Part shown: positions 24,143 through 27,673 of the stretch, one piece after another
How positions within the stretch are numbered: the stretch's first letter is position 1
Layout of the letters: the number at the start of each line of letters is the position of its first letter
Source: Candidatus Methanophagaceae archaeon
Lineage (GTDB): Archaea > Halobacteriota > Syntropharchaeia > Alkanophagales > Methanospirareceae
Reading direction: 5' to 3'
NCBI GenBank assembly: GCA_013374505.1
Contig: QENJ01000220.1
Coordinates: 1 to 35,468 of the forward strand
DNA: 35,468 nucleotides
Position numbers and translations under genes: made by a program
The notes under the pieces: generated by a model
Told to the model about the DNA's origin: nothing
Databases searched by the model: none
What the model saw: the letters and a program-made list of their open reading frames with translations, nothing else

Positions 24143-25753
24143 ATGCAAGAGGGGAAAGAGAATTCCACGGGATTTGTAAAAAACATCTGGAATAAGCTGC
24201 AAGATTGGTGGATGAGTTTTGAATACAAACATCTGTGGATTGCACGGCTCATTGTGTATTTCACGTATCTTGCTGCAGTAGTTTCGGTTTGCTTTATTCT
24301 ATTCCCGTATTTCAATCTTTATCATACTGAAGCCAATAGTGCCAGATACATGCTCAGCGCATTGGTTCAAAGTCAGGCGGCAATCGTTGCCATTGTCATC
24401 ACACTGACTTTGATTGCGGTTCAACTTACCGCTTCGGCGTATTCGCCACGAGTAATTGACATTTTCAAAAAGAATCCTGATATGTGGATACTTTTGGGTT
24501 GTTACGGTGTATCAATATTCTATGGGTTCATTGTATTGAAATTGGTGGTGGGGAAAGAAGGTGATTTTGTGAGCCGGATTGCCATCTGGTCGTATGGTTC
24601 TGTTTCTATTTCGTTTGAGTTTTGTGTTTCTCTGGCGTATTGGTTTGGAGTATTCACGTTTGTTGTGTTGTTTCCGTATATGTGGAATATTTTTGGTCTT
24701 TTAAAGCCGGGAAATATTATAAAACGATTGGCAACCGAGATTACCAAAGATAAAATTATAAAGAAGGAAGAAGACCCGATTCAGCCTATCGTGGATATTA
24801 TTCATGGTTCAATCATGAAATATGATCTTGAGACAACACGAGTTGGGTTAAAAGCAGTAACTGATCGTGTAATTGGAATTATTGAAACCGAAATTATTGG
24901 TTCAGATGGTGAGAAAGAGATTTCAGAGCGTTTTTGTAGTCATCTAACGCGAGTCGGCAGATTGACTGCAAGCAGAGCGGATGAAGAATCAACCACAGAA
25001 GTTATTAAGAATTTAGAGAACTTTGGGAAAGCAACTGCGGGAAAAGGACTTAAAAAGGCGACAACGCAAGCGGTAATGTCTCTTGAAGTAGTTGGAAAAA
25101 CTGCTGCAGGAAAAGAACTGGAAGATGCGACATGGGAAGCGGTAAAGTTTCTTGGAGAAGTTGGAGTGGCAGCAGCAAAACAAGGTCTTAAAGACGCAAC
25201 AAGCCGGGCAGTATCATCTCTTGAAGGAATTGGGAGATCTGCTGCAGAGAAACGTCTTGATGGTGCGACAAAAATGGCAGCAATAGGTCTTGGAAAGGTT
25301 GGAGAAGCAGCAGCGGAAAAAGGGCTTGGAGACGAAACAAGCCGGGCAGTATCATCTCTTGAAGGAATTGGAAGATCTGCTGCAGAGAAACATCTTGAAG
25401 GTGCGAAAGGGCGAGTAGCAGAATCTCTTGGAATTGTTGGAAATGCAGCAGGAAAACAATGTCTTGAAAGTGCGACACGCCAAGCAGCAACGTCTCTTAT
25501 AGTTGTTGGAATAGCATATGTGAAAAACAGTCTTGAAGATGCGACAAGGCGAGCAGCAAAGTCTCTTGGTCTTGAAAGTGCGACAGAGAAAGCAGCAAGG
25601 TCTCTTGCAGAATTAAAACGTTTAAATGAAGAAATCGTCAAAACTGCGATTAAAACCTACGAATCGATATTTGAAGAAAAAGACCATGACTCCTTCCAAA
25701 AATTCATAAAATTATACAAACAGAAACTCGAAGAACTGCGAGCCGAGAACTGA
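24143..25753 (+). CDS. Membrane protein (DUF2254-like N-terminus) with C-terminal 23-aa tandem repeat domain
   Basis: 536 aa; TM segments and QSQAAIVAIVITLTLIAVQLTASAYSPRVIDIFKKNPDMW; repeats S-L-x-x-(V/I)-G-x-(A/S)-A-x-K-x-L-x-x-A-T-x-x-A. Confidence 0.7.
   Translation: MQEGKENSTGFVKNIWNKLQDWWMSFEYKHLWIARLIVYFTYLAAVVSVCFILFPYFNLYHTEANSARYMLSALVQSQAAIVAIVITLTLIAVQLTASAYSPRVIDIFKKNPDMWILLGCYGVSIFYGFIVLKLVVGKEGDFVSRIAIWSYGSVSISFEFCVSLAYWFGVFTFVVLFPYMWNIFGLLKPGNIIKRLATEITKDKIIKKEEDPIQPIVDIIHGSIMKYDLETTRVGLKAVTDRVIGIIETEIIGSDGEKEISERFCSHLTRVGRLTASRADEESTTEVIKNLENFGKATAGKGLKKATTQAVMSLEVVGKTAAGKELEDATWEAVKFLGEVGVAAAKQGLKDATSRAVSSLEGIGRSAAEKRLDGATKMAAIGLGKVGEAAAEKGLGDETSRAVSSLEGIGRSAAEKHLEGAKGRVAESLGIVGNAAGKQCLESATRQAATSLIVVGIAYVKNSLEDATRRAAKSLGLESATEKAARSLAELKRLNEEIVKTAIKTYESIFEEKDHDSFQKFIKLYKQKLEELRAEN
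25010..25561 (+). repeat. Eight in-frame 69-bp tandem repeats (23 aa each)
   Basis: Units begin at 25010, 25079, 25148, 25217, 25286, 25355, 25424 and 25493; units 4 and 6 are nearly identical in DNA. Confidence 0.85.
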
Positions 25754-26065: not shown

Positions 26066-26156
26066 CGTGATAATACCATAACTATTTAAGTAGCACGTAA
26101 ATGTTTCTTTTATGAAATCATGTATTTTTAAAACAAATAGGAGGTGAAAAAAGAAG

Positions 26157-27673
26157 ATGAAAAGAAAAGTGACCGTGACGGTTTTAGCATTATTCTGTAT
26201 CCTCTTCAAATTAAAGGGTAACCGAGTATTATCTGAAAATCCGCAACTTATAGCCACAAATTTATGCAGATAATACTCCAATTCCGCGCAATATGTGTTA
26301 ATTCCAACCTTAAAAGTAGAGTAAAGTGCTACCTGACCGATAACAGATAAATTTTAGGAATCAAAGCAGGTCAGGACACAGGATTCAGATAATTTGAAGC
26401 CCGCATACGTTTTACCATACTTTTTGAAGAGGATACATTATTCTTGTGCACAGTACTCGCAGTAACTGCTTCAGCACAGGTGACAGATGATCAAGAGCTA
26501 CTGTATTTACTGGGCTCTCGAGCATCGGAGATAGCGATGAAAGACCTACCTTTCGATAAGGACGATCCAAATATTTTGGTAATGTCGAGTGCGAGCTATG
26601 CAATAATTGACGGGCATAATACAGATAGATGTATCGATGGCGTTGCAGATGCAAGTGGTTGTACGGTCGGTAAGGGAAACTTGCTTTTAATACACAGAAG
26701 TAGAGAGAAGCCTCTCTGGTTTGCCTTCTTCAGTAAGAATACGAAAGAGTGCGTGTATCTTCAAGTGAATAATGCGGTGCTCGGTAAGAGTGTTGATGAG
26801 CTCAATGCGCTTGCTGACGAAGAGGTCTTTACAAAGATTACGAAGGCGAATATCGGTGCGGATAAGCTGCTGAGCGAGCCAGAAGCATGGGATGAGAAGA
26901 TGAAGGCAGGGATATTTGGTGGCGGTGCAAAGCCATTTAACAACGAGTTCACGATAATGACGATTGCAAACATCTGGGCAAAAGGCGCACCACCGGAACT
27001 CATTCGTGCAAATCAATTCCATAACCACCTCTGCCCGGGGTCTGCAAGTGGATTTCTCTTCGTCAAATATATAGACAATAATCTGCCATTGGAAAAACCA
27101 AGCCAACGCTACCAGATAATTGCAATTAAGCCCTGGTGCAAGGACGACATCATGCAATGGATATTAGAAGCTACCATAGGAAATAAAAATTACATTGCAA
27201 AGGATCTTACTCCTGAACAGATGAAACAATTGCCAGAAGACGCAAAAGATGTCGCCAATGTCGTAATCAGATGGGATTCTGCTACGGGGACGGGAAAAGG
27301 AATAGTCATAGCATGGGATTGGGATAATGCGTGTCAAATGTGCGGCGGAGTAAGCAAAAAAGACCTCACAGCTTTTGATACACATAGATGGTGGTGGATG
27401 AGGTTGAAGATGAATCAATGGATGTTGGATTACACGGACAGCCCGGAGACACTTATTCACACAGTAAAAGAATTCGATGTCAATAGTCTGGCTGAACTGA
27501 ACTATCTCAAATCTGCTGGCGTAAATCCACTGGTTGAGCTTGGTGTCATGCCAAAATCAGAAACGACACCGACACCCGCAGAAAAAACGCCATCAATCCC
27601 TGGACTTGGTGTCATTGCAGCCATAGCCATAGCAGGTGCGCTTGTGTATGTGGTGAGAAGAAGAAAAGCATAA
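26157..27673 (+). pseudogene. Secreted FmdE-like protein; signal-peptide coding region interrupted by a 242-bp insertion
   Basis: ATG at 26157 after GGAGGTGA; MKRKVTVTVLALF before the insertion and LCTVLAVTASAQVTDD... after it; FmdE-like RANQFHNHLCPGSASGFL...CQMCGG; C-terminal PSIPGLGVIAAIAIAGALVYVVRRRKA anchor. Confidence 0.75.
26196..26437. mobile_element. MITE-like non-coding element, 242 bp
   Basis: Perfect 15-bp TIRs TGTATCCTCTTCAAA / TTTGAAGAGGATACA, flanked by TTATTC at 26190-26195 and 26438-26443. Confidence 0.85.

Follow-up and report, generated by a model that had tools for sequence, protein, structure and literature searches.

A 240-bp ANME-1 MITE interrupts the signal-peptide codons of a gene for a secreted FmdE-like protein. 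We are confident in the explanation that an IS66-family DDE transposase mobilised it in trans and that the exported form of the protein has most likely been lost. The window analysed here, a stretch of 35,468 nucleotides, is contig C2 of a 2.57-Mb assembly in 369 contigs, an incomplete MAG. The features are listed below, in window coordinates unless a locus is named; G002 is the genome of a sister species.

26140..26147, plus strand: native ribosome site GGAGGTGA; pairs with the archaeal anti-SD at -15.8 kcal/mol
26157..26273, plus strand: frame as now read from the native ATG; TAA inside the element after 38 codons
26189..26196, plus strand: left copy of the target duplication ATTATTCT, single in G002
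26197..26436, plus strand: MITE, GTATCC...GGATAC, 240 bp, absent at the orthologous G002 site
26197..26210, plus strand: left terminal inverted repeat GTATCCTCTTCAAA
26197-26222: 26 bp identical to one end of the 2005-bp IS66-type element on contig C223
26423..26436, minus strand: right terminal inverted repeat TTTGAAGAGGATAC
26437..26444, plus strand: right copy of the target duplication ATTATTCT, single in G002
26444..26446, plus strand: possible rescue start TTG (409-aa ORF), preceded at 11 nt by GAGG within the repeat; SD duplex -5.8 kcal/mol
26445..27673, plus strand: remainder of the interrupted CDS, frame intact (native CDS, 26157-26196 joined to 26445-27673)
about 27017-27328, plus strand: PF02663 FmdE domain
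L086 (G000:C223) 702-2706: full-length IS66-type element, 2005 bp; transposase ORF intact, duplication GTTTTATC

A first-pass annotation of the window had proposed a 242-bp MITE-like insertion with perfect 15-bp terminal repeats and a TTATTC duplication. The insertion and its repeats stand, but both ends had been drawn one base too far out. The outermost T/A belongs to the target duplication, since other copies of the element lack this T/A while GTATCC/GGATAC and the 8-bp duplications are kept. The element thus measures 240 bp, its terminal inverted repeats are perfect over 14 bp, and the duplication is the 8-bp ATTATTCT. The joined, element-free sequence is identical under both sets of boundaries, and the features that had been described (inverted and direct repeats, a readable empty site, the ribosome site, the premature stop) are all present. 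In 200 first-order Markov shuffles of the window, no inverted repeat of 12 bp or more, spanning 100-600 bp, was flanked by an exact 8-bp duplication; the window itself has one such case. The element contains no ORF of transposase size, and its length is under the MITE limit of about 300 bp.

The decisive proof of insertion is the empty site in G002. The orthologous gene, 96% identical in nucleotide sequence to the window gene, has one ATTATTCT and no insert; its start is uninterrupted (MKIKVTVTVLVLFLCTVLAVSASAQVTDD) and encodes an intact signal peptide (MKIKVTVTVLVLFLCTVLAVSASAQ), and the upstream region is syntenic with the window at 90% identity. The insertion most likely postdates the divergence from G002. 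A related genome with an empty site was among the checks that the annotation had proposed, and G002 supplies it. The annotation had also named two observations that would speak against an insertion, namely a lack of other copies and retention of the sequence by all orthologs, and neither holds. Its reading of a MITE-like insertion is borne out by the G002 site, by copies elsewhere with unrelated flanks and duplications of their own, and by a transposase-bearing element with matching ends. We regard it as very improbable that the assembly wrongly placed a repeat in the FmdE-like gene. In favour of such an error, the source MAG is fragmented into 369 contigs and contig ends are a frequent position of copies in other MAGs; this insertion, however, is internal to a 35-kb contig and is flanked by a perfect 8-bp duplication whose sequence is single in G002, and misjoins do not create such duplications.

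The 5' end of the same gene carries a different MITE in G002. This second element, of 235 bp (CATGACTTTCGG...CCGAAAGTCATG), is located in the leader of the orthologue, upstream of its ribosome site (L058, G002:C28, 1178-1412), and is flanked by the 5-bp duplication TTTTA; copies at 90% occur in G014 and G001, where the 5-bp duplications read from the loci are TAATA and ATATA. Because the G002 element is different and is absent from the window, the two sister species acquired insertions from different MITE families, independently, at the 5' end of one gene. This hints that export of this protein is perhaps dispensable in these species, or that selection on it changes.

Across Methanophagales (the ANME-1 archaea) we found ten full-length copies of the window MITE family. 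The nine besides that in the window (one each in G004, G005/GoMg2, G014/CONS3730, WYZ-LMO13, B131_G9 and CSMAG_2415, and three in UBA203) are 240-250 bp long and lie in both orientations between unrelated flanks. DNA searches returned a full-length copy in G004 at 88% identity, copies in G005 and G014 at 71%, and a short relative of 165 bp in G001. A search of GTDB contigs with the terminal-repeat pattern returned nine stretches, every one from a record labelled Methanophagales or 'Methanosarcinales' (ANME-1 GoMg2, CONS3730B06UFb1, SB_Co_68, WYZ-LMO13, CSMAG_2415, B131_G9 and three in UBA203), three of which are the G004, G005 and G014 copies already found by DNA search. The further copies with the same terminal repeats that the annotation had proposed to look for thus exist in other Methanophagales genomes, while the window's own genome yielded one full copy and a right-end relic and, in this incomplete MAG, no more. 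An exact 8-bp duplication flanks seven copies (window, G005, G014, WYZ-LMO13, B131_G9 and two in UBA203) and is different at every one; the duplication at the G004 copy matches at 7/8 positions, no duplication flanks one of the UBA203 copies or the short G001 element, and the CSMAG_2415 copy begins at a contig end. Target sites are mostly AT-rich. The G004 copy interrupts the frame of a multi-pass transporter-like protein, as judged by eye, and one UBA203 copy a long repeat-rich, beta-helix-like frame. Viral carriage was considered and rejected, as the terminal-repeat pattern had no match in IMG/VR. In the open-access literature we found no paper on MITEs in ANME-1 or on insertion sequences in Methanophagales, which is weak evidence of absence. 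Separately, another short element with related ends (GTATCCTCTTTAAATTTCATGG) is present in the window's genome at L029 (G000:C281) 496-765; its 26-bp repeats are 96% complementary, it contains internal repeat copies, and no clear target duplication flanks it.

These copies bear on the idea that the 240 bp are a fixed leader or structured RNA of the FmdE-like gene, which we consider very improbable. The single strand has strong hairpin potential (z -4.75) and the interior is conserved between copies (82% mean column identity), as a structured RNA would have it. However, the copies lie at unrelated places and in both orientations, the perfectly kept long helix is formed by the terminal repeats pairing as inverted repeats, and covariation contributes only -2.29 of -30.14 kcal/mol. 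The empty G002 site refutes a gene leader and, together with the absence of an Rfam match, led us to reject this candidate.

The family falls into two subfamilies. In subfamily 1 (window, G004, CSMAG) the transposase-side IS end is on the left (ATTAAAGGGTAAC), whereas in subfamily 2 (G005, G014, UBA203, B131_G9) this position has the sequence found at the opposite end of related IS copies (AAATTGATTGGTAA). From one subfamily to the other both inverted repeats change together, and the interior can be aligned throughout. G005 and G014 belong to different genera; their MITE copies are 97% identical, compared with 75% for a host gene (a thin yardstick of one NfeD-like gene, taken from the window), which suggests that the MITE spread recently between genera. 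A more far-reaching proposal, which we think unlikely, is that ANME-1 genera have retained the interior as a cassette, selfish or functional, which would exchange its ends to track resident IS66 transposases, move between genera and repeatedly silence or relocate secreted proteins.

A candidate source of the transposase is present in the same genome. The annotation had proposed a search for a full-length element with matching terminal repeats and a transposase, and the element at C223:702-2706 answers to this description, with a 26-bp identical end and an intact ORF. Its own 8-bp duplication GTTTTATC lies on both sides, and the intact transposase frame comprises about 565 residues from an inner ATG. 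The product matches Pfam PF03050 (IS66 DDE transposase) at 2.3e-9 and 37.5 bits (cut-off 23.1 bits), and D, D and E motifs are readable (QIDDT, LLSDD, HNNDAE); against NCBIfam NF033517 it scores 49.7, below the equivalog cut-off of 180. IS66 elements are reported to have 8-bp target duplications and ends starting GTAAGCG (PMC11946415). The C223 element resembles them in its DDE transposase match and its duplication length, on which we claim it as 'divergent IS66-type'. It is not a typical member, since its transposase is divergent, only one ORF was seen, and its ends begin GTATCCTCT (GTATCC), not GTAAGCG. Related IS elements occur in 26 of the 58 genomes of the class, weak matches and fragments included. 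As the first 26 bp of the window MITE equal one end of this element, which has an 8-bp duplication and an ORF above the PF03050 cut-off, we class the MITE as IS66-type, and in all likelihood it was moved by the IS66-family transposase of the same genome. Some observations count against this explanation: the IS ends differ from those of IS66, the MAG yielded only one full MITE copy and a relic, and no similarity between the interior of the MITE and the C223 IS could be detected. The MITE is therefore not a simple internal deletion of that IS.

In the proposed mechanism, an IS66-family DDE transposase would act in trans on the non-autonomous 240-bp MITE, which would transpose into the T-rich signal-peptide codons of the FmdE-like gene and duplicate 8 bp of the target. 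Translation from the native ATG now ends inside the element, so that the exported form is most likely lost, leaving at best a low-level cytoplasmic form from TTG 26444 or the ATG at codon 45.

The interrupted gene is the only one of its kind found in this incomplete MAG. Its product has PF02663 and, by eye, a signal peptide and a PGF-CTERM-like C-terminal anchor. An in-frame signal peptide behind a ribosome site had been read from the element-free sequence, in agreement with the intact G002 start. The stop inside the element that had also been noted follows 38 codons of the frame from ATG 26157, at 26271-26273. The TTG at 26444 is the only restart that would keep any signal-peptide residues; its ribosome site is weak, and its product would begin MCTVLAVTASAQ, lacking a charged n-region. 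Because the native frame stops in the element and this TTG has a weak ribosome site, export of the protein is likely lost. The annotation's 'probably lost' is thus plausible and unrefuted as a reading of the sequence.

It is possible, though we rather doubt it, that the gene is still usefully expressed from a start in or just after the element, as a cytoplasmic, tail-anchored FmdE-like protein, the insertion having changed its location without destroying it. This would alter the consequence only and is compatible with a MITE origin. The downstream frame is intact, with dN 0.021, dS 0.094 and dN/dS of about 0.23 relative to G002, and the window branch, polarised with G025, has few changes (5 synonymous, 3 non-synonymous). 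Weak SD-like sites precede the TTG and, as GGAG, the ATG at codon 45 (-6.6 kcal/mol). Yet both are far weaker than the native site, and the 11-nt TTG spacing is long. A newly gained rescue start at codon 45 was rejected, since this methionine is common to several homologs, G002 being the exception; relaxed selection after the insertion was likewise rejected, as the changes are too few to tell. A recent insertion accounts equally well for the absence of decay, and the undecayed gene body does not prove loss of function. Either the insertion is recent or the remainder of the gene is still in use, and the data do not separate the two. Among neighbouring observations, tandem or fused repeats of the FmdE-like protein occur in L060 (G014:C27) and L064 (G023:C192), with several matches in one G014 stretch, and window positions 24143-25753 encode a membrane protein whose C-terminal half has many degenerate short repeats (ATxxAAxSLxxxG-like).

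The event is well documented but of an ordinary kind. It shows, for an uncultured archaeon that oxidises methane, a gene disrupted by an insertion that is polarised, has a real empty site and can be assigned a likely transposase, and it documents a MITE family across Methanophagales, apparently between genera. Unlike IS66 elements, the window MITE lacks a transposase, while its terminal repeats match a full-length 2005-bp relative. Prokaryotic MITEs have been reviewed (PMC10969869), with examples from the archaea Sulfolobus and Haloquadratum and, in bacteria, MITEPsy1 and MITECca01, for which the parents are given as 'IS5?' and IS982, respectively; in the review text examined, IS66 is not mentioned. 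The window MITE differs from the reviewed MITEs in its ANME-1 host and in an interior that is common to copies in different genera but not similar to the parent IS. It resembles them in its length below 300 bp, its terminal inverted repeats and target duplication, the absence of a transposase, its occurrence in several copies and its intragenic insertions.
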